Source of the DNA: a virus
Reading direction: 5' to 3' (one strand)
IMG/VR virus record: IMGVR_UViG_3300020580_000015
Coordinates: 1-60,636 of that record
DNA: 60,636 nucleotides
The notes under the pieces were generated by a model that saw only the letters and a program-made list of their open reading frames with translations, was not told where the DNA came from and ran no database searches. Each line of letters starts with the position of its first letter. Position 1 is the first letter of the stretch. Positions 1,585 through 60,240 of this stretch are shown here, piece after piece. A program made the position numbers and the translations under genes.

Positions 1585-1971
1585 ATGGCTAGCAGCTACG
1601 TCAACCCCGACGCCTGCGCGCCGACAGCACTGTCGAAACTCTTCTCTGAATCTTTCGAGCGCGCATGTGACCGTATACGCCGCGCTGGCGGCGACCCGCG
1701 GGCTGTGACCCGAGACGTGTTTGATCGGCTCCTGGCGCCGCACGGTATCGAGCAGCGCACGATGTTCAAGCGGGCCGCCGTATTCGCCCGCTGGCGTCGT
1801 TGGAAGCGCGGGGCGTGGGTGGTTGTGGTCACAGGCGACGGCGCCAGCACCGGCCACTGCGTCACCCTGCGCGACGGCCGCGCTATGGGTAACCGCTGGT
1901 GCCGGTTCGAGCCGGGCCGCTTCCGGTACGAGTCCCTGAGAGTGCACGCCGCCTGGAGGGTGGCCGCATGA
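1585..1971 (+). CDS. Papain-like / C39-like cysteine peptidase fold protein
   Basis: 128 residues. Near the N-terminus NPDACAPTALSKL matches the Cys-helix of papain-like enzymes; residues GHCVTLRDG later in the chain supply a His in the right context, followed by RAMGNRWCRFEPG. This resembles small phage cysteine-peptidase-like proteins and could be a peptidase, amidase or deubiquitinase-like enzyme. The substrate is unknown and catalysis is inferred only from motif spacing. It is preceded by GGGAGG and overlaps the following HNH gene by 4 bases. Confidence 0.6.
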   Translation: MASSYVNPDACAPTALSKLFSESFERACDRIRRAGGDPRAVTRDVFDRLLAPHGIEQRTMFKRAAVFARWRRWKRGAWVVVVTGDGASTGHCVTLRDGRAMGNRWCRFEPGRFRYESLRVHAAWRVAA

Positions 1972-2477
1972 TAGTCATCATGAAATATTGCGGTAAGTGT
2001 CATGAGCACACGCCGCGCGGGCATCGAGGTAGCTGTAAGCCGTGCAAGAACGCCAGAGCCAGGGTACGTCGTAGTACGCCAGAAGGTAAAGCTGCGGCAT
2101 GTAAATCCTCGACCGATTGGCGACTGAAACACCTGGATCGCGCCAACGCTACGCAGACCGCACGAAGGTCGACTCCGCAAGGTGTAGCAGTCGTGTTGCT
2201 TCAACGCGCCCGCCGTCGCGCCAAGAGCGCAGGTTTACCATTTTCTCTTAGTCTAGATTCGTTGCGACAGAAACTTGAGCGTGGCGTATGCGAGGTATCT
2301 GGACTTCCTTTTGTTTTGACGCCATTTGGCAATCCGCGTCGTCCGTCAATCGACCAGATACGGGCCGGTGAGGGATACACACCACAGAACACCCGCGTAG
2401 TGCTTTGGGGTATCAACGTCGCTTGCCATACCTGGGGACTTGAAGCTATAACTGAAATTTTTAGGAGCGTCCCATGA
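1968..2477 (+). CDS. HNH homing endonuclease
   Basis: 169 residues from ATG 1968 (ATGA overlap with the preceding gene). The N-terminal zinc knuckle has paired cysteines (CGKCHEH, GSCKPC), then basic DNA-contacting repeats (RRSTPEGKAA, RRSTPQGVAV), then an HNH-type core with CEVSGLPFVLTPFG, RPSIDQIRAGEGYTPQNTRV and a conserved Trp-Gly-Ile-Asn segment, as in phage HNH nucleases with the PSIDRI..GYT..N signature. It is free-standing and sits between two intact genes, so it does not split a host gene here. The stop overlaps the start of the serine recombinase (ATGA at 2474). Confidence 0.85.
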   Translation: MIVIMKYCGKCHEHTPRGHRGSCKPCKNARARVRRSTPEGKAAACKSSTDWRLKHLDRANATQTARRSTPQGVAVVLLQRARRRAKSAGLPFSLSLDSLRQKLERGVCEVSGLPFVLTPFGNPRRPSIDQIRAGEGYTPQNTRVVLWGINVACHTWGLEAITEIFRSVP

Positions 2478-8269: not shown

Positions 8270-8523
8270 TCGAGTGGCGCGACATCCCAGGATATCCGTA
8301 CTATCAGGCTAGTAGTGACGGCAGCGTTCGCTCGCTTGACAGATATGTGCAGTATCCGAACCACGTTCAGTTGGCGCGCGGCCGGAAGCTTACTCTAGCC
8401 GAAGCTGACGAGGTGAGAAAACTTCGAGCAGATGGTTGGTCTCTTCCGGCTCTATCGCGACGGTTCGATATGAATACGGGACAGCTGTGGCACATCACAA
8501 AAGATCATCAGTATGTCCGTTAA
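8263..8523 (+). CDS. NUMOD4-type homing-endonuclease fragment lacking the HNH core
   Basis: The N-terminus IEWRDIPGYPYYQASSDGSV followed by RSLDRYVQ is the NUMOD4 signature of HNH homing endonucleases. The C-terminal part (LTLAEADEVRKLRADGWSLP then LSRRFDMNTGQLWHI) is a helix-turn-helix like the NUMOD1/IENR modules that follow the nuclease. The HNH nuclease core that should lie between them is missing, so at 86 residues this is probably a deleted endonuclease now reduced to a DNA-binding protein. The start is GTG 8263 or TTG 8266. It overlaps the DNA polymerase gene by 11 bases. Confidence 0.75.
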   Translation: MLIEWRDIPGYPYYQASSDGSVRSLDRYVQYPNHVQLARGRKLTLAEADEVRKLRADGWSLPALSRRFDMNTGQLWHITKDHQYVR

Positions 8524-10738
8524 AATATTATGGCTGGATTCTGAGACCAGGAGCCGAACCGACATCAGCGCCGGCACGGACCGCTACACGCGTGATTGCG
8601 AATGCCTCATTGTCACGTACGCGTTCGCCACTGACCCAGCTAAGATATGGTTCCCGCGCGTCGACCCGTTACCACCACGAGATCTGATGGATGCTCTGAA
8701 TGATCCAGAGTTTCTATTTGTAGCTCATAATGCCGCCTTCGATAGGTTAGTGCTTGAGCGCGCACTTCACCTTCGCACACCGCTGCGCCAGTGGCGGTGC
8801 ACGATGGCCGGCGCCTCCGCGCATGGGCTCCCGGGATCCCTCGATGCGCTCGGCAGGGTCTGCATGCTGACCGAGGACGAGGCAAAGCTGACGGACGATA
8901 AGGGGCTGATCCACACCTTCTGCGAGCCGAACACGGCGACCGGCAAGTTCAACGAGCCCGAAGATATGCCAGTAGAGTGGGCGCGCTTCTGCGCCTACGC
9001 CATTCGCGACACCGAAGCACTACGCACGATCTTCAATCGCATGCCGCAGGTGAACTATGCTGGCGTGAACCTTCGCAGCTGGATGCTGGACCAGCTCATC
9101 AACGAGCGCGGCTTCGGGTTCGACGTACCGCTCGCGAACGCCGCCTCAGATTTTCTTGACCTGGCGCGCGAGGCGTCGCGCAAGGTGATGCGCGCCAACA
9201 CAGAGGACCAGATCGGATCTGCCACACAGGCGAAGCGGCTGCTAGCGTACATCCGCAATCGTTACGACATCGACATCGAATCACTCCGCGCTGGTGACGT
9301 GAGGGACTACCTTGAAAGTGACGACCTGGACCCAATTCTTCGCACTGTTCTCGAAGAGCGGCTCGAAGCCGGAAAAAGTGCTGGTACTAAATTCAAGCGG
9401 GGACTTGCACTGGTTGGCCCCCAAAATCGCATCCGTCACTGGTGCCGTTGGTCAGGTGCGGGCCGTACAGGTCGTCACGCGGCACGCGGATACCAGCCGC
9501 ACAACATGGCTCGTCCGTCTATCACGGTGCGGCGGCCTCCTGGACACAAGCGAGCCGGACGCATCGAGCTGGAGCCGGTTAAAGCAAGCGTTATCGACGA
9601 TGTCATTATCCCCGGCATCTACAACAAGACTGCACTGAACAATCCGCTCGTGTACGGCGGCCCGTTCGAAGCGGTCGCCATCGCCGTGCGCCACGGCATC
9701 ATCGCCGCGCAGGGCAACGAGCTGGTCGTCGCCGACTTCAAGAACGTCGAGTCAGTGATCACTGCCTGGGTCGGCGGCGAGCAGTCGGTGCTCGATGCGT
9801 TTCAATTCTCGTTCGACAATCCGAAGGATAAGTCGAAGGATCCGTACCGCATGCTCGCCGGCAAGATGCTTGGCAAACCGCCCGAGGAAGTGAACGAATC
9901 CGAGCGGCAGATGGGTAAGGTCTGCATCCTGGCGTTCGGCTTCGGTGGCGGCGTCGCGGCGCTCGTCAACATGGCAATCGCGTATCAGATGGATCTGGAG
10001 CCGCTGGCCTTCATCGTGTTGCCGTCGGCAACGTCCGAGCAGCTAGAGAAAGCCAACAAGGCGTGGGAGCGCGCGTTCCTGACCGGCGAGGACTTCGAGC
10101 TGGAGCGCGACGTCTACATGGCCTGCGATATTTTGAAGCAGGCGTTCCGCACAGCCAACCCCGCGATCAATCAGATGCGCTACGATCTGAACACCGCGAT
10201 CCTCGAAGCGGTGGCCGACAAGAACGGTACGATCTACCACGTCGGTCGCTGCGCGATCTGGTGCAACGCTTCGTTCCTGGTGATCGAGCTGCCCAGCGGC
10301 CGCCGGCTGCTGTACGCTGCGCCGATCCTGAAGCAGGAAGAGGTTGAAGATCCGCTCGGCGGCAAGCCGTGGAAGTCCCGCTACATCACGTACTTAACGG
10401 TGCGTGGCCGAAGTTGGCGCCGTGAGCGAGCGTGGTCTGGTCTTTTCGTTGAAAACATCGTGCAGGCGATTGCGAACGACGTGCTGCGCGCTGCGATGCT
10501 GCGCGTGCACGACGACACGCTGACAGTGCCAGCCATCGCCGCGTATCTCGCGACGCTGGAGCCGTTCGCACGCACTGCTATCAGTTTACATGTACATGAC
10601 GAGATAGGTTTGGACTGCCCCAAAGGTAGCTATTCGGCTGAGAGATTCATGTCGGTAATTAAAACTAAGGAGCCGTGGATGGCTGGGCTGCCTATAGCCG
10701 CAGACATCTGGATCCACGAACGCTATGGTAAGCGCTAA
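8513..10738 (+). CDS. Family A DNA polymerase with 3'-5' exonuclease
   Basis: 741 residues. The exonuclease domain shows the three DnaQ-like motifs: WLDSETRS (Asp-x-Glu), FVAHNAAFDRLVLERAL and YAIRDTEAL. The polymerase domain carries motif A (VVADFKNVESVITAW), motif B (ERQMGKVCILAFGFGGG) and motif C (LHVHDEIGLD, the catalytic His-Asp-Glu), with ARGYQPHNMARPSI upstream as in phage Pol I-like enzymes. It is the replicative polymerase of this phage. It is bracketed by two endonuclease-related genes (8263 and 10725) but is itself intact. Confidence 0.95.
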   Translation: MSVKILWLDSETRSRTDISAGTDRYTRDCECLIVTYAFATDPAKIWFPRVDPLPPRDLMDALNDPEFLFVAHNAAFDRLVLERALHLRTPLRQWRCTMAGASAHGLPGSLDALGRVCMLTEDEAKLTDDKGLIHTFCEPNTATGKFNEPEDMPVEWARFCAYAIRDTEALRTIFNRMPQVNYAGVNLRSWMLDQLINERGFGFDVPLANAASDFLDLAREASRKVMRANTEDQIGSATQAKRLLAYIRNRYDIDIESLRAGDVRDYLESDDLDPILRTVLEERLEAGKSAGTKFKRGLALVGPQNRIRHWCRWSGAGRTGRHAARGYQPHNMARPSITVRRPPGHKRAGRIELEPVKASVIDDVIIPGIYNKTALNNPLVYGGPFEAVAIAVRHGIIAAQGNELVVADFKNVESVITAWVGGEQSVLDAFQFSFDNPKDKSKDPYRMLAGKMLGKPPEEVNESERQMGKVCILAFGFGGGVAALVNMAIAYQMDLEPLAFIVLPSATSEQLEKANKAWERAFLTGEDFELERDVYMACDILKQAFRTANPAINQMRYDLNTAILEAVADKNGTIYHVGRCAIWCNASFLVIELPSGRRLLYAAPILKQEEVEDPLGGKPWKSRYITYLTVRGRSWRRERAWSGLFVENIVQAIANDVLRAAMLRVHDDTLTVPAIAAYLATLEPFARTAISLHVHDEIGLDCPKGSYSAERFMSVIKTKEPWMAGLPIAADIWIHERYGKR

Positions 10739-11084
10739 CAAACTTGCTGCCAATAAACGTTGGGGAGAGCGCAACAAAGAGAGGATGCGCAAGTATCGCG
10801 CGCGTTGGGCGAAAGAAAAACGCGCCAAAGATCCGACTCTCTTAATGACGATTCGCAAACGAAGGGGCCTGCCTGAACCTACGCGAGCGACACCGTCAGC
10901 ATGCGAGTGCTGCGGAGTACCAGCAAGTAAAGCGCTCGATTTAGATCATTGCCACATATCTGGCGTGTTCCGCGGATGGCTGTGCAATAGATGCAATCGC
11001 GGATTAGGTTTCTTCAACGATAGCATCGAAGGTTTGATGAACGCGGTGCGCTACCTACAGCGCGCAGCCGGAGAACAGTCGTGA
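10725..11084 (+). CDS. EndoVII-like (recombination endonuclease VII) HNH nuclease
   Basis: 119 residues. A basic N-terminus (KRWGERNKERMRKYRARWAK) is followed by the EndoVII His-Me core: CECCGVPASKALDLDHCHIS, then RGWLCNRCNRGLGFFND, with the DxDHCH and CNRCN motifs that hold zinc and the catalytic metal. Such enzymes cut branched DNA or act as mobile homing nucleases. It starts inside the polymerase gene (14-base overlap). Confidence 0.9.
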   Translation: MVSANKLAANKRWGERNKERMRKYRARWAKEKRAKDPTLLMTIRKRRGLPEPTRATPSACECCGVPASKALDLDHCHISGVFRGWLCNRCNRGLGFFNDSIEGLMNAVRYLQRAAGEQS

Positions 11085-35392: not shown

Positions 35393-37852
35393 TCAAGCAG
35401 CCTTTTTCGGCTTCTTGGGTTTGGCAGCGGCCAACGCCTTAGCGGCGGCAACCTTCTGCTCGTTCAACTCCTGTTGATGTTTCAACGTCAGCGCGTGCTT
35501 CTCGTGCATGCGCCGCATCTCGGCCTCGTGGGCCGCGGTGTGTCGCGCCAGCTCTGCTTCATGCTGCTGCTGAGCACGGGCTTGCTCTGCCTGCAGGTTC
35601 AGATGCGCGGCGCCCTGATCGGCAACGTGCTGTTGGGCTGCGTGTACAATATTCTGTTTGTGCTGCTGATCGGCGTGCGTCATATCCTGGAGGTTGCCGA
35701 CGTGCTTAGCAGCGAGATCCATCTGCGCGGACTGCGCGGCGGTCTGACTTTCCTGTGAGTCGGACTTGATCTCGTTCGCCATCTTGATGTTCGCCAGGTG
35801 CTTGCCGGCGGTCTCGAACTGAACTTTCTGCTGCTCCATCGGGCTGATCTGAGCACGAGACTGCGCTATCTGCGCGTCCGCGGTCATCTTCGTGGTCTTA
35901 CCCTGCAGCAGCTGCATCTCAAGCTGTTGCTGTTGCTGCTGCATCTGCTGTGCGGCGGACTTCTGCGAGCCGACACCGGCCGCCTTCTCCTTCTCAGTCG
36001 GCTGGATGATGCCTTGCTGTATCAGCGGGATCCGCAACCGGTTCGCCATCTCTTGCGCGTCCGGCGAGTCGATGTTCTTCGCGATCAGGTCGCTGATCAT
36101 CGGCGCGTTCTGCGGCATCGCTTCAGCAAACGAGATCAATGTATCGAGCGCTTCTTGGCGCGCGGACTGGAAGCTTGGGCCGATGGTGACTTCAACGTCA
36201 TAAGAACCCTGCGACAGATCGTTCATCACGTCGCCGGTCAGGTCGTTCTCTTTGTTGATCTCGACCATCTTCTCGACGCCGTCGTGACCAATTATGCGCT
36301 CGACACGCGCCGAGTCATAGACGGATGGGATCATGTCGACAAACATTTCCCAAGTGAGCTGCAGCGCCGAGCTGAAGCCGTCAATGAATTCGAAGCTGCC
36401 CAGGTCCGAGCGCTTCGTGTGTTGCACGAGCGCTTTGCCTGAGACGCGGTTCATATCTTCCGCGTTGCCGAGCGCTGGGTCGAAATACCCTATCGTGGCT
36501 TGAATGTCCTGGATCGACATCTGCGCGAGAGCCATCGCACCCTGCGGCAGGTCGAGTGGCTGCGTGCGGAACGGCATACCGCCTTCGGCGTTCTTGTCGA
36601 CGTTGTACGGCAAGTACGGGCGCGAGGCGACGTTCGCCTGGTTCCACTCGTTCTCGTAGCCCTTGATCATCGCCTCAGTGACGAGGTACGGCGCCTTCGG
36701 CAGGAGCGCACTGCGCTCGATCATGTCCGAGGCGCGGGAGTTGTAGCTGCGCTGCGCGTCTTTGGAGTGACGGATCAGCGACTGGAATTTCTTGCGGCCT
36801 TCGATGTTGATGTAACGACCGGGACAGCGCACGACCGGAATTCTCTTCCAGTCATAGTAGTACGGGCCTTCGAGCACGGTAGAGCCGTCGATCTTGGCCC
36901 ACATGACCTGCCACTTCGTGGTCTTACGGATCATCGGTTTGCCGGTCTTCTTGTTCGTCGCGATGCGCGTGACGCCGCTCTTCTCGAACGTCAGACCGTG
37001 CTCTTCGAGATGCTTTTCTGTTGCCTTTAGATCGGCGTCGTACTCGCGTACGGTGCCGTCGGTCATCTTCGCGATCCACTTCTCACGCGGCACGCGCTCG
37101 AAGTATTCGGCGATGCGAACTTCTTTGTCAGTGAACCAGCCGTAGCTGTCACGCGAGACAGTGAAGCTGTTCATATTGCCGTCCGGGTACAGAGACTCGT
37201 AGATCTCGTCGGAGATGCGCTCCGCCACGATGCAGCGGTTGGCGTCGGCCGCGCACGCGTCAGCGCACTGCGGATCCCACACCACTGTCTGAGGGTTCGA
37301 GATGTTGAGGACACGCAGCACCTGGTCGAAGGCGCCTTCACCGTCGTCTTGCATGTAGGTCGGCATGATGCGCCATGCACCAAAGCCGCCAGCGACGGCG
37401 AACTTGAATTGTTCCTTGTAGATCTGATCAGCACGGCTGCACTGCTCAATGGAACGGCACAGACCGGCGAATACGTCGGAGATTGCCTCAGACGCGCCAT
37501 CGGACGCGGGCCGCACCTTGCCAGCGGGGCGCGTCTGACGCATATCAGCCACCACCATGTTCACTGGCTGCAAGCAGCGATTGAACGTGTAGCACGGCTT
37601 GCCGCGGCGATTTTGGAGCACGACGGGATCCCATTGCCCCATCGCTTCGGCGTTGTAGATGAAGTTCAGATCTTCGGAGTGCATGCGACGGTTCTCTTCC
37701 CACGCACCGACACCTTCGTCATAGAAGTTGCGGATGCGCGAGAGGAGACCTTCGTTGTCCTTGATCTGGAACCCAGGCGAGTCGGGGAGCGTGCCGCGTT
37801 GTCCCGGCACGTCCCCGATCAGATCCCAGTTATCGCCTGCGTTGCCGCTCAT
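35393..37852 (-). CDS. Portal protein (P22 gp1-like)
   Basis: 819 residues. GVGAWEENRRMHSEDLNFIY and GQWDPVVLQNRRGKPCYTFN, then VNMVVADMRQTRPAGKVRPA, match the P22-type portal. The C-terminal 200 residues are a Gln-rich coiled coil (AAQQMQQQQQQLEMQLLQGK ... ARAQQQHEAELARHTAAHEA), which could form an extended barrel as in P22. The N-terminal GQRGTLPDSPGF resembles the QRGS motifs of the polyvalent protein. Confidence 0.9.
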   Translation of the reverse strand: MSGNAGDNWDLIGDVPGQRGTLPDSPGFQIKDNEGLLSRIRNFYDEGVGAWEENRRMHSEDLNFIYNAEAMGQWDPVVLQNRRGKPCYTFNRCLQPVNMVVADMRQTRPAGKVRPASDGASEAISDVFAGLCRSIEQCSRADQIYKEQFKFAVAGGFGAWRIMPTYMQDDGEGAFDQVLRVLNISNPQTVVWDPQCADACAADANRCIVAERISDEIYESLYPDGNMNSFTVSRDSYGWFTDKEVRIAEYFERVPREKWIAKMTDGTVREYDADLKATEKHLEEHGLTFEKSGVTRIATNKKTGKPMIRKTTKWQVMWAKIDGSTVLEGPYYYDWKRIPVVRCPGRYINIEGRKKFQSLIRHSKDAQRSYNSRASDMIERSALLPKAPYLVTEAMIKGYENEWNQANVASRPYLPYNVDKNAEGGMPFRTQPLDLPQGAMALAQMSIQDIQATIGYFDPALGNAEDMNRVSGKALVQHTKRSDLGSFEFIDGFSSALQLTWEMFVDMIPSVYDSARVERIIGHDGVEKMVEINKENDLTGDVMNDLSQGSYDVEVTIGPSFQSARQEALDTLISFAEAMPQNAPMISDLIAKNIDSPDAQEMANRLRIPLIQQGIIQPTEKEKAAGVGSQKSAAQQMQQQQQQLEMQLLQGKTTKMTADAQIAQSRAQISPMEQQKVQFETAGKHLANIKMANEIKSDSQESQTAAQSAQMDLAAKHVGNLQDMTHADQQHKQNIVHAAQQHVADQGAAHLNLQAEQARAQQQHEAELARHTAAHEAEMRRMHEKHALTLKHQQELNEQKVAAAKALAAAKPKKPKKAA

Positions 37853-38370: not shown

Positions 38371-39147
38371 TTAACCACTCCACACTCCGCCTTGCGTCGC
38401 CATCTCAGGCACCCAGCTGAACCACGGCAAGCCGCCATCGCTCGCGGGCGGCGCCTTCGCCACGTCGTGGCCGCTCATCACGTTGTAGCGTGTGGCGTCC
38501 ATCAAATGGTCGTTCTTTTTTATAATGTTGCCTTTCTCATCGCGACGATACAGGCGCACCTCTTTGAACCAATTAACGCAGGTGCTGAAGATGCGCAGCT
38601 GCTGCGTCGAGAGCATGTCCCAGGTCTGCACCAGCCCGGTCACGACCGTGTTGTCGGCCTTGCTGACCTTCAGCCCGAGGTTGCAGTACGTGTCGATCAG
38701 CAATTCACCGTCGGTGCCGCGCGCTTTCTGCGCCGCAGGGTCTATCACGCCGTGAATCCACGGACCGCGCCGATTGATCGCTGCGACATGTACTGCAGGG
38801 TCGGCTTGACCGCGATAGTACTCGTCGTACATCACCGCCGGGTACCGTTGGTTGCCGGCGGCGTCTTTGAATCCGTTGTCGATGTCCCAAGCGAACCAGC
38901 ACACCGCGGTGCAGTTCCAGCCCGGGTCCATCCCGTACGAGCGCGGCCAGTGGGCCGGGATATCGAACGGCTGGATCGACATCACGCTCTCGGGGATCGG
39001 GTAGATCGCGCCGACGCCGTGCCCGGGTATGCCGGACTTACGTGCTTGGAGCTGCCACGCCGGCACGCTCGACAAGATTTTCTTTTTCTCCGATTCGGTC
39101 AAATGAGCGACATCGTCCATGTCTAAAAAAACGCATGATTTAGACAT
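38371..39147 (-). CDS. Terminase large subunit, C-terminal nuclease half
   Basis: 258 residues. Begins MSKSCVFLDMDDVAHLTESE, which in intact terminases lies after the ATPase domain. PRSYGMDPGWNCTAVCWFAW (catalytic Asp74), IHGVIDPAAQKARG (Asp136) and KNDHLMDATRYNVM (Asp217) form the RNase-H-like nuclease site that cuts the concatemer. The ATG directly follows the HNH stop (TAAATG) with only a weak ribosome site, so it probably relies on re-initiation. The ATPase half is encoded separately at 39641-40537. Confidence 0.9.
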   Translation of the reverse strand: MSKSCVFLDMDDVAHLTESEKKKILSSVPAWQLQARKSGIPGHGVGAIYPIPESVMSIQPFDIPAHWPRSYGMDPGWNCTAVCWFAWDIDNGFKDAAGNQRYPAVMYDEYYRGQADPAVHVAAINRRGPWIHGVIDPAAQKARGTDGELLIDTYCNLGLKVSKADNTVVTGLVQTWDMLSTQQLRIFSTCVNWFKEVRLYRRDEKGNIIKKNDHLMDATRYNVMSGHDVAKAPPASDGGLPWFSWVPEMATQGGVWSG

Positions 39148-39648
39148 TTACGCCACCGCGAAGCTGTGTTTCTTGCTGCTATTTTCAGATTTAGATAGCA
39201 GTCGTAGATTTTCTGGCACATGTAGACCGCTGACGCGGGCTCCTTGTAGCGGAATTATATGATCGACAGTTAATCCTGCCGCAACGGCTTGATCGTAAAA
39301 AACCTGAATAGCGTCGAGGTCAGCCCAAGCTACGGTACGCTGAAGCTGCGCGGCGCGTCTCTTAGCCTCGTACGCGTTATAGGCGCCTCTGTGCGAATCC
39401 TTATACACCGCCAGATGTTCTCTGTTGAGCGCTTTCCAATTTTCGGAAGCCGTCAGATCTCTGGTAGGGTCTGTCGCGTATCTATCTCTCCTGCGCTGCT
39501 GTGCGCACTCTATGCAGCGCGATTCTCGGCGCGTAGACGGTTTGCCCTGCGTCGTAGTATACGAATACCAGTAAAAATCTTCTGGAGCTTTACCTTGTCC
39601 GCACATAGTGCACGGCTTGTGCTGTGGTCGTATTTTTACCTCACTCAT
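39148..39648 (-). CDS. HNH endonuclease inserted between terminase halves
   Basis: 166 residues. Two zinc pairs (KPCTMCGQGK and SRCIECAQQRR), a basic middle (NAYEAKRRAAQLQRT) and the HNH core LTVDHIIPLQGARVSGLHVP then ENLRLLSKSENSSKKHSF. The start overlaps the ATPase-half stop by 8 bases (ATGAGTGA), and the stop is followed at once by the nuclease-half ATG. The whole insertion is just this ORF, with no flanking ribozyme-sized sequence. It likely homes into uninterrupted terminase genes. Confidence 0.9.
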   Translation of the reverse strand: MSEVKIRPQHKPCTMCGQGKAPEDFYWYSYTTTQGKPSTRRESRCIECAQQRRRDRYATDPTRDLTASENWKALNREHLAVYKDSHRGAYNAYEAKRRAAQLQRTVAWADLDAIQVFYDQAVAAGLTVDHIIPLQGARVSGLHVPENLRLLSKSENSSKKHSFAVA

Positions 39649-40537
39649 CGACGACCGTCTCCTCTTCCAGCTCCCACTGCTCAGTCGGCATCGCGTCTGG
39701 CTCGGGCGACAGCTCGGGCATGAACGTGATCATCAGGTCCGATACGCCCAACAGCGGCGTCTCTGTCAGCACCAGCGTGCCGTTCACTTCGCCGGGCACC
39801 GTGCTCATGAGCCGCATGCCGCACTCGGCGTAAATTTCCAGCTTCGGCTCTTCGTCGAGGTGGATCCTGTCCTGGCGCGTGCCTTGGAAGGCTTCGCGGC
39901 CCTGATCGTACGACTTAAACTGCAGCGTCGAGATGCCGCCGGACACGTGACGCACAAAAACCGACTCGAACGCATCGGCGAGACCGTGTTTCACCGTCCG
40001 CCGCACCAAAAGGTCGCCAGGAATCATCCCGGTGCCGTACGCGGACTCAACGCCGGGCTTACCGCACATCTTTTCTTGTAAAATGTCGCGCGTGTTCTTC
40101 GCGGTATCGGTCGCCAACCACATATCGATGGGTCGGTCGTATCTTCGTCCCGGCCACCAGTCAGGGTACAGCCCGGTAAGGTGCAGCGCATCCGCAAAAC
40201 AGCCGCAGTGCGTCTTACCAGTTCTGTTTCCACCGAAAAGTGCAATTTCATCGTCCTTCGCTTCTGAGGCGAAGAACTGCATCTGCTTCGGATAGTGCGC
40301 CCGACCGAGCGGGCAGTTTTTCAGCGCCGGATGGTCAGTCGGATCCTGAAACCAGGTCACTATTTGGGTCTGATCCTGGATTTTCGCTCGCTGGCTCAGG
40401 ATCTGGATCAGTTTCGTTGTCTCTGCCAGACTCAACGAGCTGATATTCTGCTTCGATAACAGACTCGTCAGCTGTGTCGGCAGCGGCGAGTAAACCCTGT
40501 CGATTAAATCTCGATAGGATTGTGGAAAGTTGCGCAT
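39641..40537 (-). CDS. Terminase large subunit, N-terminal ATPase half
   Basis: 298 residues. Walker A is FGGNRTGKTHCG (residues 101-112), Walker B DRIHLDEEPK (223-232), coupling motif LVLTETPLLG (256-265). The protein ends soon after LMITFMPELSPEPDAM with a Glu-rich tail, before the RNase-H-like nuclease, which is encoded by 38371-39147. A split exactly between motor and nuclease domains suggests the two polypeptides act together. The first 203 bases overlap the terminase-small-type gene in another frame. Confidence 0.9.
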   Translation of the reverse strand: MRNFPQSYRDLIDRVYSPLPTQLTSLLSKQNISSLSLAETTKLIQILSQRAKIQDQTQIVTWFQDPTDHPALKNCPLGRAHYPKQMQFFASEAKDDEIALFGGNRTGKTHCGCFADALHLTGLYPDWWPGRRYDRPIDMWLATDTAKNTRDILQEKMCGKPGVESAYGTGMIPGDLLVRRTVKHGLADAFESVFVRHVSGGISTLQFKSYDQGREAFQGTRQDRIHLDEEPKLEIYAECGMRLMSTVPGEVNGTLVLTETPLLGVSDLMITFMPELSPEPDAMPTEQWELEEETVVDE

Positions 40538-48767: not shown

Positions 48768-49087
48768 CAGCGTTTCTTCCATCGCTCCAACGTGCGTTGC
48801 ACGGTGGCGGTCGCGTTCTGCACTTCATCAATGTACCACAGAATGCAGCCGTCTATGCGCACGGGCAGCGGCGCCATCTTGCGCGCGAGGAGTCGGCCCA
48901 GCTCGCCGTGGCTGCACTTGAAGAGCACCGTCAGGTTCTCTCGGGTGTACATGGCCGGCGGCTCTTTGCGAGGTTCCCGTGGCTCGGCAACCGGCACGAT
49001 GGTGCGATGTTCTTTGTCGTAGACCAACGGCACGAAGGGTTTCTTCGGTGTATCTGTCCACGGGATCGTCGTTTGAATCTCACTCAC
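48767..49087 (-). CDS. Small HTH DNA-binding-like protein
   Basis: 106 residues. After a Pro-rich leader (TDTPKKPFVPLVYDKEHRTI), the part YTRENLTVLFKCSHGELGRL then ARKMAPLPVRIDGCILWYID looks like an AlpA/excisionase-type winged helix (helix-turn-helix, then a wing with a Trp-Tyr strand). It is the second gene of the late operon and may regulate it (inference). Confidence 0.65.
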   Translation of the reverse strand: MSEIQTTIPWTDTPKKPFVPLVYDKEHRTIVPVAEPREPRKEPPAMYTRENLTVLFKCSHGELGRLLARKMAPLPVRIDGCILWYIDEVQNATATVQRTLERWKKR

Positions 49088-49448
49088 CAGTGAATTCCTT
49101 CGTCAGCTGCTGCTCCAGATACATCGCGGCAGCGCGAGCCAGGAGCGGACTCTCGCGCAAAGCGCCGATGGCTGTATTACACCCGCCACAGAGTAAAGAA
49201 CGAACCCGACCTGTCTTATGATCGTGATCGACATGTAGCGTGCGGTCGCTGGGTGTTCTGCAAATCGCACAGACGCCATTCTGCTGTACGAACATTCGAT
49301 TAAAATCTTCGACCGACAACCCGTACAAACTCTTAAGTCGATATCTCAGGTTGTACTTTTCCTTCAGTGCCTTCGCTCTTGCCGACTCAAGGTACTTTCG
49401 CTTATATGCCGCGCGTCTGCCAATGTACGGATCTGAGGCTTCTTTCAT
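49080..49448 (-). CDS. EndoVII-like HNH nuclease
   Basis: 122 residues. A basic N-terminus (RRAAYKRKYLESARAKALKE) then YGLSVEDFNRMFVQQNGVCA, ICRTPSDRTLHVDHDHKTGR and VRSLLCGGCNTAIGALRES: the full EndoVII zinc and His-Me pattern. First gene of the minus-strand operon, with AAGGAG before its ATG. Could resolve branched DNA before packaging or be a homing nuclease. Confidence 0.9.
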   Translation of the reverse strand: MKEASDPYIGRRAAYKRKYLESARAKALKEKYNLRYRLKSLYGLSVEDFNRMFVQQNGVCAICRTPSDRTLHVDHDHKTGRVRSLLCGGCNTAIGALRESPLLARAAAMYLEQQLTKEFTGE

Positions 49449-53949: not shown

Positions 53950-54258
53950 GTGCGAAGTCGCCACTGGTTTTGGGCCGCAGTTATCCTGATGTTAGGTGGG
54001 ATCCTCTACATGGGACTCGCTCCCGCCGCTGAGGCGGCTACTCCGCGTGTGAGCACCCAACCCACTGTTGAGGTCGACGTGGTGTTAAAGACAGATAAAG
54101 CCTGGACGCATCGCAAGGCTACCGTAGACGCATTCAGCGACGGTAAGATAGTTGTCTGTGAAGAGTTCAAAGATAGTGTAGTCGCCCAGTGCATTGTGCT
54201 GGTAGACGACGGCGATGTTCCGATGCTGCCTGTCCGATTGTTAGAGGATAAAATATGA
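53950..54258 (+). CDS. Secreted or periplasmic small protein
   Basis: GTG 53950, 102 residues. The N-terminus MRSRHWFWAAVILMLGGILY then MGLAPAAEAATP is a signal peptide with an Ala-x-Ala-type cleavage site. The mature part (VSTQPTVEVDVVLKTDKAWT, CEEFKDSVVAQCIVLVDDG) is beta-rich with two Cys. It may act in the periplasm during infection. Confidence 0.7.
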   Translation: MRSRHWFWAAVILMLGGILYMGLAPAAEAATPRVSTQPTVEVDVVLKTDKAWTHRKATVDAFSDGKIVVCEEFKDSVVAQCIVLVDDGDVPMLPVRLLEDKI

Positions 54259-55208
54259 GTCTCGGCGCATCGGCCGAAGACTGGGCACACTTCGATTTAA
54301 TACTCGGACTAGGCACCAACCTATTACCCTGCGTGCCAGCATCGTCGGACGTGAAAGTGGCAGAAGGCTCCGCGCTGGCCGGGAAGGTGGGGAAGATTCC
54401 GTCGATGATTAATGGCCGTGGTGAAGCTCATGGCCTATTAGCCTGGCAGAAGCGTGAGATCGCATCGAGTGAGGTGCAGTACTGGTCCAGCGACCGGCGC
54501 CTCAACATGTGCGTGCGCACCGGCCCGATCAGTGGCATCTATGCTCTCGACATCGACATCGACGACGATCCCACCGTCGGCCCTGACCGCGCAACTGACG
54601 TTGTCGACGCGATACACTCAACACTCGGCGCGCTTCCCACGCGATGGCGCGAGAACAGCGGCAAGTGTCTATTGATGTTCAGGATGGAGGAGCCATGCAA
54701 GAAGCGCAAGATCAAGCTCGATGCGAATCCCAAAGGTCCGGCCATCGAGCTGCTCGCCGATGGTCAGCAGTTCGTTGCCTGTGGCACGCACTCCTCTGGT
54801 GTGCGCTACCGCTGGGGTGCCGAGCTGCCTTCGAACATTCCGACGATCACGCTGGCTCAGCTGGATTCATTATGGAAGACACTGACTACCAGCTATGCGA
54901 GGAGCGATACGTCACCCGTCCCGAATGCTCTGGCCAAGGCATCGAACCCATCTACGGGTACGGACCAATCAGCGGGGGTGATGAAGACGATAAGCGAGCC
55001 AGACTGGGAACATTTGCTGGCATGCCTTCGCTTCCTGGTTCCACACGCCGCGGACGAACAAGTATGGGCGGAAATAGGAATGGCTCTATTGTCGATCAAA
55101 GATTGCGGTAAGCCGGTGCGGCAGCTGTGGCTAGACTTCAGCAGAAAAGCACCAAATTGGGAAGAAGGCGCGGCCGAGCAATGGTGGGAGGCGCACGCTC
55201 GTGAATAG
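54255..55208 (+). CDS. Prim-pol primase half of a split primase-helicase
   Basis: 317 residues. GRGEAHGLLAWQKREIASSE, ISGIYALDIDIDDDPTV (acidic catalytic residues, Asp99 and Asp101) and AIELLADGQQFVACGTHSSG then VRYRWGAE are the prim-pol (bifunctional DNA primase/polymerase N-terminal) signatures. A PriCT-2-like segment follows (WAEIGMALLSIKDCGKPVRQ). The frame ends with QWWEAHARE, where relatives continue into 'SDFRxIFxxAxxxG' and the helicase; that continuation is encoded by 55667. The stop overlaps the HNH start by 8 bases (GTGAATAG). Confidence 0.85.
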   Translation: MSLGASAEDWAHFDLILGLGTNLLPCVPASSDVKVAEGSALAGKVGKIPSMINGRGEAHGLLAWQKREIASSEVQYWSSDRRLNMCVRTGPISGIYALDIDIDDDPTVGPDRATDVVDAIHSTLGALPTRWRENSGKCLLMFRMEEPCKKRKIKLDANPKGPAIELLADGQQFVACGTHSSGVRYRWGAELPSNIPTITLAQLDSLWKTLTTSYARSDTSPVPNALAKASNPSTGTDQSAGVMKTISEPDWEHLLACLRFLVPHAADEQVWAEIGMALLSIKDCGKPVRQLWLDFSRKAPNWEEGAAEQWWEAHARE

Positions 55209-55683
55209 GCTGCAGATTTACTATCAGCTTAATAAGGAACGTCTCAAGGCGCAGGCCAGAGCACGTTACGCCACTAAGCGAGAAGAGATACGCCAGAAAT
55301 TAAATGAGTATGGACGTAAGAACAGAGTCGCAGCTAAAGAGCGTCTTCAGAAATGGAGAAAAGATAACCCCGATAAGGCTAAAGAACAATCGCGTCGGTA
55401 TTACGCAAACAGCGTAGCTAGACGGGCGCATGTAAAGCTTGAGACTGCGTACCGCCGCGCGGCAATAGCCAACAGAAAGTGCATTTGCTGTACTAATATC
55501 ATGTTTCGCACTGTTTACGCAGCGTCTGAACTGGTAGGCGGCGAGGTCGACCACATAAAAGCGATAGCGCTCGGAGGAAAGCACTGCGTGAAGAATCTAC
55601 AGATTCTCAGTGTGGAAGAGCACAAGGAAAAAACCAAGCGCGATCTAGCTGAATGTCGGAGGCTCCGTGCAGCCGCGAAGTGA
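55201..55683 (+). CDS. HNH endonuclease inserted between primase and helicase halves
   Basis: 160 residues from GTG 55201. The front is a long basic helical region (LKAQARARYATKREEIRQKL, NEYGRKNRVAAKERLQKW) for DNA contact. The nuclease core KCICCTNIMF, then GEVDHIKAIALGGKHCVKNL and QILSVEEHKEKTKR, is HNH-type. The DNA is visibly richer in A and T than the flanks. It overlaps the primase half by 8 bases and the helicase half by 17, so the insertion consists of this gene alone. Confidence 0.9.
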   Translation: MNRLQIYYQLNKERLKAQARARYATKREEIRQKLNEYGRKNRVAAKERLQKWRKDNPDKAKEQSRRYYANSVARRAHVKLETAYRRAAIANRKCICCTNIMFRTVYAASELVGGEVDHIKAIALGGKHCVKNLQILSVEEHKEKTKRDLAECRRLRAAAK

Positions 55684-57346
55684 CTTTAGGCGTATATTCA
55701 ATATGGCGCGGCAGCGCGGCATGCAACGAATCGCCTCACCTGACGACTTCCCGCCAGTGGCAGCGGCCGACTCGCCTCCAGCGGCGAATTCTGATCTGGT
55801 TGATGTCATGCCACCGGAAACTCAGATAACGCCTGGCGAGCGGCGCACGATTCTTCTGATTGACGCGAACTTCCCTAACATTTTGGATGAACTGGAAGAA
55901 GTAATTAGTCCGTACGTCTACACACAAGGATCACACCTGGTTCGAACATCGGAAGCTCACAATGACGCCGCCATACAGCGCAGCGCCGACGCGTTGATGC
56001 TGGTTGGTGCATCAAAAGATTGGGCGCGCAAGCGGCTCGGCCAGCTTTGTGATTTCAAGAAATATTTATCGTCGCGTGAGGAATGGATATCAGTTAGCCC
56101 AAGTGCCGAACATGTCAACGCGATGCTCGGGCTGGGCGGATGGAGCACGCTACGCCCGCTTGACGCCATCGCCCGCGCGCCGTTTTTACGGGAAGATGGA
56201 AGCATCTGCGATGTTCTCGGGTACGATTGTGCAAGTCGTGTTTTATACATCCCAAGCACGAATTATCCGCCGATCCCAGAGACACCGACGCGTGACGACG
56301 CGGTGGCAGCGCTCGCGCGCATCCGCGAACCGTTCAATGAGTTTCCCTGGAAGGAGGAGGCATCGGAGAGCGCGTTCCTGTCGCACATCCTCGCCGAGGC
56401 CGCGCGACTAGCAATGGAGCGCTGCCCGATGTATTTCTACGACGCGCCGATGGCCGGCACTGGCAAGAGCACACTGCAAGAGATGGCCGCGCGCATCGTG
56501 CACGGCACCGAGCCGGCACTGCGCCCTTGGGTGGCCGACGAGGACGAACTACGCAAATCACTTTACGCATGTCTGATGGCGGGTGACCGCTCCATCTGGT
56601 TCGACAACGTGCCGGATGGTGTGAAGGTGCGCTCCTCTGTGCTCGAAGCGTTCCTCACCAGCGCGGTGTGGAAGGATCGTAAGCTGGGCGAGAGCATGAC
56701 CACAGCGATACCGAACAAGACGGTGCTGGTGGCTTCAGGCAACAACCTGACACCAGTCTCCGCACTTGCACGGCGTAGCCTCGTGATACGCCTCGACGCC
56801 AACACCGAGCATCTACGTGAGCGTGTGTTCAAGATCGTGAACCCGCGCCGGCACGTCATGGAGCGACGCGGTCAGATGCTCATTGACGCGCTCACGATCA
56901 TCAAGGCGTATCTCTTGACCGGCGGCAAGGAACAGATGCCGGTCGCGCTGCCCAGCTTCGAGGATTGGTCGCGCCTCGCGCGTGATCCGTTGATCTGGCT
57001 TGGCCTCGCGGATCCTGTTGTCACACAGCTCAATGAAACGGATGACGAGTCTCAGCCGCTCGGTCCGATCTTCGAGAAGCTGGCAGCCAACTTCGGTGAA
57101 CGCACGTTCACCGCTGGCGACATGGCGCGCGTCGTCGGCAGTCTCTCCGATGAGAAGAACGAGCTGAGCGACGCGCTGATGCAGATGGGATGCATGGAAC
57201 CCAACAACCCCATCAAGATCGGCTACTGGCTCCGTGCCTCGAAAGATAAAATCGGCAGCGGCTTGAAACTCGTGCACGACGGGCATAGCATGCACGGTGT
57301 GAGATGGCGGTTACGAAACACGAACGGAGATCTGACCAATGGCTGA
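55667..57346 (+). CDS. AAA+ (SF3-like) helicase half of the split primase-helicase
   Basis: 559 residues. The chosen start is GTG 55667 with GGAGG upstream, because the first residues QPRSDFRRIFNMARQRGM are the natural continuation of the primase half; ATG 55703 is the alternative. Walker A is YDAPMAGTGKSTL (about 258-270), Walker B GDRSIWFDNV (306-315), then VLVASGNNLTPVSALARRSL with sensor and Arg finger. Unwinds DNA at the fork, presumably with the separate primase polypeptide. Confidence 0.85.
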   Translation: MQPRSDFRRIFNMARQRGMQRIASPDDFPPVAAADSPPAANSDLVDVMPPETQITPGERRTILLIDANFPNILDELEEVISPYVYTQGSHLVRTSEAHNDAAIQRSADALMLVGASKDWARKRLGQLCDFKKYLSSREEWISVSPSAEHVNAMLGLGGWSTLRPLDAIARAPFLREDGSICDVLGYDCASRVLYIPSTNYPPIPETPTRDDAVAALARIREPFNEFPWKEEASESAFLSHILAEAARLAMERCPMYFYDAPMAGTGKSTLQEMAARIVHGTEPALRPWVADEDELRKSLYACLMAGDRSIWFDNVPDGVKVRSSVLEAFLTSAVWKDRKLGESMTTAIPNKTVLVASGNNLTPVSALARRSLVIRLDANTEHLRERVFKIVNPRRHVMERRGQMLIDALTIIKAYLLTGGKEQMPVALPSFEDWSRLARDPLIWLGLADPVVTQLNETDDESQPLGPIFEKLAANFGERTFTAGDMARVVGSLSDEKNELSDALMQMGCMEPNNPIKIGYWLRASKDKIGSGLKLVHDGHSMHGVRWRLRNTNGDLTNG

Positions 57347-58742: not shown

Positions 58743-58773
58743 GGCCGCACGTAACTTGAACCTGGAGATGCAG

Positions 58774-60240
58774 ATGGAATTTTCGACCTACCAGAACGCG
58801 ATCTTCGCCTTCCTCGCCAACACCCTCCGCAACCTGGTCGTGCGCGCTGGCGCCGGCTCCGGCAAATCCACCACGCTGATCGAGATCGTCAAGCGCCTCG
58901 TCGGCAACACCATTTTCCTCGCGTTCGGCAAGGACATCGCCGAGTCGCTGAAGTCGCGCGGCGTCAACGCCCGCACCTTCCACAGCCTCACATACATCCC
59001 GGTGACCCGCTTCTACTCGACGACGGTCCGCGCCTCTGTCGACGGCAGCAAGGTCCGCAACATGATCCGCGAGCGCTACAGCGAAGCTGATCAGCGCACG
59101 TACGGCAACTTTGTCAACAAGCTGGTGGGTCTCGCGAAGAATTCCGGCATGGGTTTTCTGATCGACGACACCGAGCAGAACTGGGACGACCTGGCCGCTA
59201 AGCACGACTTGGAGATCGAAGACGGCAAGGGCGACCACCGCACCGCGCTAGAGCTGGCCCGCGCGATGCTGATCAGCTCGAACAACGCCGCCACCCAGCA
59301 GGGACTGCTTGACTTCGATGATCTGCTCTTCCTCGCCGTCAAGGAAGGCATCACGCTACCGACGTTCGACAACGTGCTGGTCGATGAGGCGCAGGACACC
59401 AACGCGATCCAGCGCGCCATCATACGCAAGATCATGAAGCCCACCTCTCGCCTGGTAGCGGTCGGTGACCCGAGCCAAGCCATCTACGGTTTCCGCGGTG
59501 CCGACAGCGACGCGATGGACCTGATCAAGTCAGAGTTCGACGCCGACGAGCTGCCCCTGACGGTTAGCTACCGCTGCGCGAAGTCCATCGTCGAGTACGC
59601 TTCCCAGTTCGGCGTGATCGAGGCCGCCCCGGGCGCCATCGACGGCGAAGTGAAGAGCCTCAAGCGCACCGACAAGTATGTGGATCTGATGGGTGCCGCT
59701 GACCTGGTGGTGTGCCGCCTCACGAAGCTGCTGATCGAGCTGGCGTACGATCTGATGATGGCCCGCAAGCCGGCGTACATGATGGGCCGCGAGATCGGCG
59801 AAGGTCTCGTGAACCTGATCAAGAAGCAGCAGGCCAAGGGCATCGAGCAGCTGATCGTCAAGCTGGAAGCCAGCACCGCCCGCGAGGTAGAGCGCGCCAA
59901 GGCGAAGAACGACGACGCCAAGGCCGAGCGCGCTGAAGACCGCCGCGACTGCATCCTGTTCCTGGTTAACACGCTGGAAGAGAACGACCGCACGATCCCC
60001 GAGCTGATCCGCGTCATCGAGAACCTGTTCCGCAACAAGGCGGACGCGGTGGTCCTGGCGACGGTGCACAAGGCCAAGGGTCTCGAAGCGGCCCGCGTGT
60101 TCTGGCTGAACCACGACTACGTCAGCAAGTGGGCGCGTCAGCCCTGGCAGAAGCAGCAGGAAGTGAACCTGCGCTACGTCGCCGCCACCCGCGCGAAGTC
60201 TGAATTGGTCCTGATCCCTTCACCCCCAAAATCCAAGTAG
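58774..60240 (+). CDS. UvrD/Rep-type superfamily 1 helicase
   Basis: 488 residues from ATG 58774 (GGAG 6 bases upstream; ATG 58768 and TTG 58756 also in frame). Motif I VVRAGAGSGKSTT, Ia RTFHSLTYI, II VLVDEAQDTNAIQ, III LVAVGDPSQAIYGFRGA, IV LTVSYRCAKSIVEY, V LATVHKAKGLEAARVF, VI LRYVAATRAKSELVLI. All motifs are present and the accessory 2B-type region is short. Likely a replication or recombination helicase. Confidence 0.95.
   Translation: MEFSTYQNAIFAFLANTLRNLVVRAGAGSGKSTTLIEIVKRLVGNTIFLAFGKDIAESLKSRGVNARTFHSLTYIPVTRFYSTTVRASVDGSKVRNMIRERYSEADQRTYGNFVNKLVGLAKNSGMGFLIDDTEQNWDDLAAKHDLEIEDGKGDHRTALELARAMLISSNNAATQQGLLDFDDLLFLAVKEGITLPTFDNVLVDEAQDTNAIQRAIIRKIMKPTSRLVAVGDPSQAIYGFRGADSDAMDLIKSEFDADELPLTVSYRCAKSIVEYASQFGVIEAAPGAIDGEVKSLKRTDKYVDLMGAADLVVCRLTKLLIELAYDLMMARKPAYMMGREIGEGLVNLIKKQQAKGIEQLIVKLEASTAREVERAKAKNDDAKAERAEDRRDCILFLVNTLEENDRTIPELIRVIENLFRNKADAVVLATVHKAKGLEAARVFWLNHDYVSKWARQPWQKQQEVNLRYVAATRAKSELVLIPSPPKSK

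Follow-up and report, generated by a model that had tools for sequence, protein, structure and literature searches.

How does a phage come to encode its primase-helicase in two pieces with an endonuclease gene between them, and do those pieces still amount to an enzyme? The locus that raises this question lies in a whole IMG/VR virus record of 60,636 bases, which we refer to as the window (the entire stretch of DNA analyzed) and which represents a tailed phage, as judged by its portal, capsid, terminase, and DNA ejection genes. Three open reading frames (ORFs) on the plus strand are concerned, each found where the initial annotation of this DNA had placed it: a primase half (54255-55208), a predicted HNH endonuclease gene (55201-55683), and a helicase half (55667-57346). 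The primase half comprises a Prim-Pol domain (Pfam, 3.4e-11) and most of a PriCT-2 domain (Pfam PriCT_2, 3.8e-6), and it terminates in ...EQWWEAHARE, with its stop codon at 55206-55208. The helicase half starts at a GTG codon (VQPRSDFRRIF...), carries the last segment of PriCT-2, and contains Walker A (GTGKS) and Walker B-like (IWFDN) motifs. Both halves match one protein family profile of 887 positions, phrog_29234, the primase half at positions 33-302 and the helicase half at positions 348-863 (8.7e-66). Because these matches follow one another in order, we regard the two halves as parts of one protein, in agreement with the annotation's view that the second continues the first.

Relatives of this protein indicate that it is ordinarily encoded without interruption at this point. 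Nine IMG/VR contigs (L001-L009) encode relatives of the helicase half that are 73-88% identical to it; an alignment-based scan for distant relatives recovered the same nine contigs, and a search of genome contigs gave none. All nine are continuous across the insertion point (e.g., AAEQWWSAHRSQQPRSDWRHILNLARQRGM in L003), and in seven the gene is whole and single, with 853-865 codons. The primase half is 60-68% identical to the N-terminal part of the seven intact proteins. Alignment of the halves to these uninterrupted homologs thus identifies the HNH gene as a real insertion. The same alignments bear on an alternative in which primase and helicase were ancestrally separate genes with an HNH gene lying between them, as is the situation at the terminase of this very genome (see below). 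A continuous gene of 853-865 amino acids in seven of the nine relatives, together with continuity at this point in the other two, refutes that history, to which we assign next to no probability; primase and helicase are thus not always separate genes, the prospect against which the annotation had cautioned.

Comparison of protein and DNA junctions with those of L001-L009 delimits a net insertion of 464 nt at 55203-55666 on the plus strand (equally 55206-55669, given an ambiguity of one codon), which is missing from all nine relatives. The relatives read H-x-x-Q-x-P-R and the window reads H-A-R-(E or V)-Q-P-R; hence no flanking codon was lost and at most one was changed. The gap between the halves is filled, as first described, by a gene of 160 codons with a GTG start. 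Its PHROG matches are of the HNH/endonuclease VII type (phrog_1035, 3.4e-8; phrog_333, 5.3e-8), and the HNH catalytic pattern C-x2-C...DHI...KNLQ...EEHK is present with its H-N-H residues visible; the match to Pfam HNH reaches 15.4 bits, under the cut-off of 21.4. This gene begins inside primase sequence, overlapping the primase stop by 8 nt, and its final codons and TGA stop are read from helicase sequence, overlapping the helicase start by 17 nt. A search for other carriers of this HNH gene gave weak partial matches alone.

The annotation had located the break at the border between domains. Placed solely by Pfam profile positions, the cut instead falls approximately 13 model positions inside PriCT-2 (counted along the L001 match): the PriCT_2 profile is matched to position 76-77 of 77 in the intact proteins of L001 and L005, but to position 61 in the window's first half, and the final segment (RRIFNMARQRG) goes with the helicase half. 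The PriCT-2 portion retained by the primase half scores 27.6 bits, equal to intact relatives. An AlphaFold model of the intact L003 protein, with a mean pLDDT of 37, was left unused.

If the halves were rejoined after transcription or translation, the enzyme would still be made in one piece. An intein at 55203-55666 is excluded because the three ORFs lie in three different frames (HNH in +1 and helicase in +2). A small self-splicing intron of the group I type, with the HNH ORF as its homing endonuclease and splicing restoring the full-length protein, would be in keeping with the frequent presence of HNH genes in phage introns and with phage ICP1, in which both the terminase and the tape measure gene undergo splicing, in the tape measure gene around HNH genes (PMC10448857). 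It is also possible to draw a boundary (55203-55669) that has U before the insert, G at its end, and an in-frame join. The insert nevertheless matches no Rfam model, either at the gathering level or at E<=10, and its predicted RNA fold is barely better than that of shuffled sequences (z -1.4). Moreover, the HNH ORF takes up the whole insert and extends past it on either side, so that no room is left for a separate ribozyme core, and both new starts are preceded by top-1% Shine-Dalgarno (SD) sequences, which splicing would render unneeded. Inserts at a second site in related phages, described below, are likewise without an Rfam match (E<=1). Given the empty Rfam searches, the extent of the ORF, and the ordinary fold, we consider an intron very improbable, and we saw no sign of the intron or intein that the annotation had named as a refutation of its reading.

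The SD-like sequences point to separate translation of the pieces. One of them, GGGAGG (55186-55191, plus strand), precedes the GTG of the HNH gene and is formed by the primase codons for WWEA; its duplex energy of -10.2 kcal/mol is equaled by 0.5% of start-like codons in the window. The other, GGAGG (55658-55662, plus strand), lies within the insert, 4 nt ahead of the GTG of the helicase half, and reaches -9.5 kcal/mol (equaled by 0.8%). These strengths fit three separately translated, coupled genes. The account that we hold to be very probably correct is one in which the HNH insertion produced a gene in pieces. Sequence comparison indicates that a free-standing HNH homing-type gene entered a one-piece prim-pol/helicase gene, giving rise to three tandem, overlapping genes while keeping all host codons on either side. 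The SD within host codons would serve the HNH start, and the insert-borne SD would serve the helicase restart. Primase half, HNH gene, and helicase half may be translated from a single message, with reinitiation coupled to termination, and the halves, as separate polypeptides, would assemble or work side by side as the replicative primase-helicase. The HNH gene probably arrived by recombination from a divergent relative, bringing flanking host-gene sequence with it, and its family membership suggests homing by cleavage of insert-free alleles. The inferred components of this account are that the halves function together, that translation is coupled, and that the HNH gene homes actively.

A less constructive possibility is that the split allele belongs to a dying or assembly-chimeric genome, with the primase-helicase inactivated and another replication gene serving in its stead, or with the contig misassembled. 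The 55203-55666 insertion is seen in one genome only, which is a metagenomic contig, and a UvrD-type helicase gene (58756-60240) and a DNA polymerase gene (8513-10738) are also present in the window. Several features argue for a maintained enzyme instead: both halves are open, the Walker motifs and the PriCT-2 score are retained, pN relative to L003 is close to 0 in the 3' portion of the helicase, and the helicase restart has a strong SD. In addition, other contigs (L002 and L004) independently show the same architecture. We therefore regard inactivation or misassembly as quite improbable, and favor a gene in pieces whose products would continue to function.

The DNA around the insert carries a pattern that is relevant to how it arrived. 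Relative to the nearest relative, L003, DNA identity is ~95% in most bins more than 1 kb away but only 46-60% to either side of the insert, defining by DNA identity and pS a co-conversion-like tract of raised divergence centered on the insert (54400-56400, plus strand). Over the same comparison, pS rises from 0.11 at the primase start to ~1.0 beside the insert and declines to 0 at the helicase end; since synonymous sites are affected, the tract reflects an exchange for divergent DNA and not a relaxation of selection. The final 70 residues encoded by the primase half share 50-54% identity with the relatives, which share 67-84% with one another. A trough of this kind is the pattern expected of co-conversion around a homing insertion, for which it provides moderate evidence, because mosaicism between the window and L003 is also seen elsewhere. 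Within the portal gene (35401-36000), for example, identity to L003 drops from 98% to 73-77% with no nuclease gene present; we take this to be ordinary phage mosaicism, and it serves as a control for the divergence argument. Much of the 22-31 kb region is likewise mosaic between the two. No donor of the divergent PriCT-2 stretch was found in IMG/VR or phage records.

The two relatives in which the gene is not whole are themselves informative. L002 (4937-5503) and L004 (5063-5503) each carry an HNH insert within the Prim-Pol domain, before a conserved KKRK motif. The HNH genes at this second site belong to a different subfamily from that of the window's insert and are related to another window gene, at 1899-2477. 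Their upstream overlaps are 1 and 4 nt, and in both contigs the downstream half restarts at an ATG that overlaps the HNH stop as ATGA. As in the window, the HNH starts are preceded by strong SD sequences formed by host codons (-9.3 and -9.8, top 1%); the downstream halves restart behind weaker ones (-5.9 and -4.7). On the evidence of these sequences, L002 and L004 represent an independent second case of HNH insertion into the primase-helicase gene. Between the two contigs, dS is ~1 and dN/dS is 0.16 and 0.18 in the two halves, ratios that may largely reflect the time before the split, and their HNH genes have diverged at least as much as the halves; it is thus unlikely that the insert recently passed from one lineage to the other. 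Protein trees, which are poorly resolved, do not pair L002 with L004, and a search for further carriers of the L004 HNH gene returned that gene alone. Separately, we noted that the sequence ENSGKCLL just upstream of the second site (54640-54690 in the window) occurs in the window as well as in L002 and L004 but not in the uninterrupted relatives, and may be a trace of past exchange.

Related phages therefore carry two HNH families at two sites of one enzyme gene. We tentatively suggest, while recognizing that this generalization may well prove wrong, that the primase-helicase gene could be a repeated landing site for unrelated HNH families in this phage group, each situated just behind an SD formed by host codons and each providing a downstream restart, so that translation signals, and not domain borders, would select or filter the insertion points. 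Such a pattern would make a testable rule possible, namely that insertions survive where host codons already hold a ribosome-binding site.

The initial annotation had based its idea of a repeated, tolerated mode of insertion on the terminase, as a second core enzyme bisected by an HNH gene with the same junction geometry. Recurrence is better documented by L002 and L004, with their second HNH family and second site. The large terminase subunit (38371-40537, minus strand) is encoded by two genes, for the ATPase and the nuclease, with an HNH gene (39148-39648) between them in the window. In all eight relatives that are readable here, ATPase and nuclease are already two ORFs in different frames, separated by a short gap or overlap, and none of the eight has an intact HNH gene at this position. 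The simplest reading of these sequences is that the terminase HNH gene sits between genes that were probably separate before it. The nearest relative at this locus, L010, retains the first 15 and last 25 nt (40 nt) of the window's terminase HNH gene, so that a deletion must have removed the gene from a lineage that once possessed it. In phages outside the group, a single gene appears to encode the terminase (e.g., EBPR podovirus 1 gp39), which dates the split to the group's common ancestor or earlier; an older HNH insertion, since lost, is a possible cause. Nor does the shared 8-bp overlap denote a shared mechanism. Overlaps of this length occur natively, both where the 3' end of the helicase half meets the gene starting at 57339 (ATGGCTGA) and between the terminase genes of L012 and L015 (ATGAGTAA), and the corresponding overlaps in L002 and L004 are 1 and 4 bp. 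The terminase case carries a warning that a nuclease gene found between the halves of an enzyme need not be what split it.

Events of this type are already known, and the window is a well-supported further case. In Aeromonas phage Aeh1, nrdA is split by the HNH gene mobE and the pieces make a working enzyme (Friedrich et al. 2007, as related in PMC2988022). From that account, the two systems share an HNH gene within the coding sequence of a core enzyme and separately encoded halves without an intron; they differ in the host gene and in that function of the pieces was shown in Aeh1, whereas here it is inferred. In phage T4, mobA splits the topoisomerase gene 60/39 and overlaps the upstream ORF by 23 bp (PMC2988022). 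There too an HNH gene splits a replication enzyme and overlaps the ORF before it, and ribosome scanning at overlaps has been proposed (PMC2988022), although the enzyme is a topoisomerase rather than a prim-pol/helicase. Gene 43 of Aeromonas phages 25 and 44RR (PMC2988022) is closer to the window's terminase, in that a homing endonuclease lies at a gene that is in two parts even in a relative lacking the endonuclease; the primase-helicase differs in that all nine relatives are continuous at the insertion point and seven of them have the gene whole. ICP1 resembles the window in that core genes, there those for the terminase and tape measure, are fragmented and associated with HNH or T5orf172 genes (PMC10448857), but the ICP1 pieces are rejoined by RNA splicing, whereas an intron was not detectable at the primase-helicase insert. 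A limited literature search, of partial coverage, found no earlier split primase-helicase. The primase-helicase thus joins the few core enzymes of phages that homing-type genes are known to have split, and close relatives with the gene intact provide the controls.

The window encodes further nuclease genes. The one at 1899-2477 (plus strand) is a third HNH-type gene (phrog_3322, phrog_1035) that is 100% identical in L003 and is of the same subfamily as the HNH genes inserted in L002 and L004. Two small genes resembling endonuclease VII (Pfam Endonuclease_7) lie at 10725-11084 on the plus strand and 49080-49448 on the minus strand; the former shares 14 nt with the 3' end of the DNA polymerase gene.
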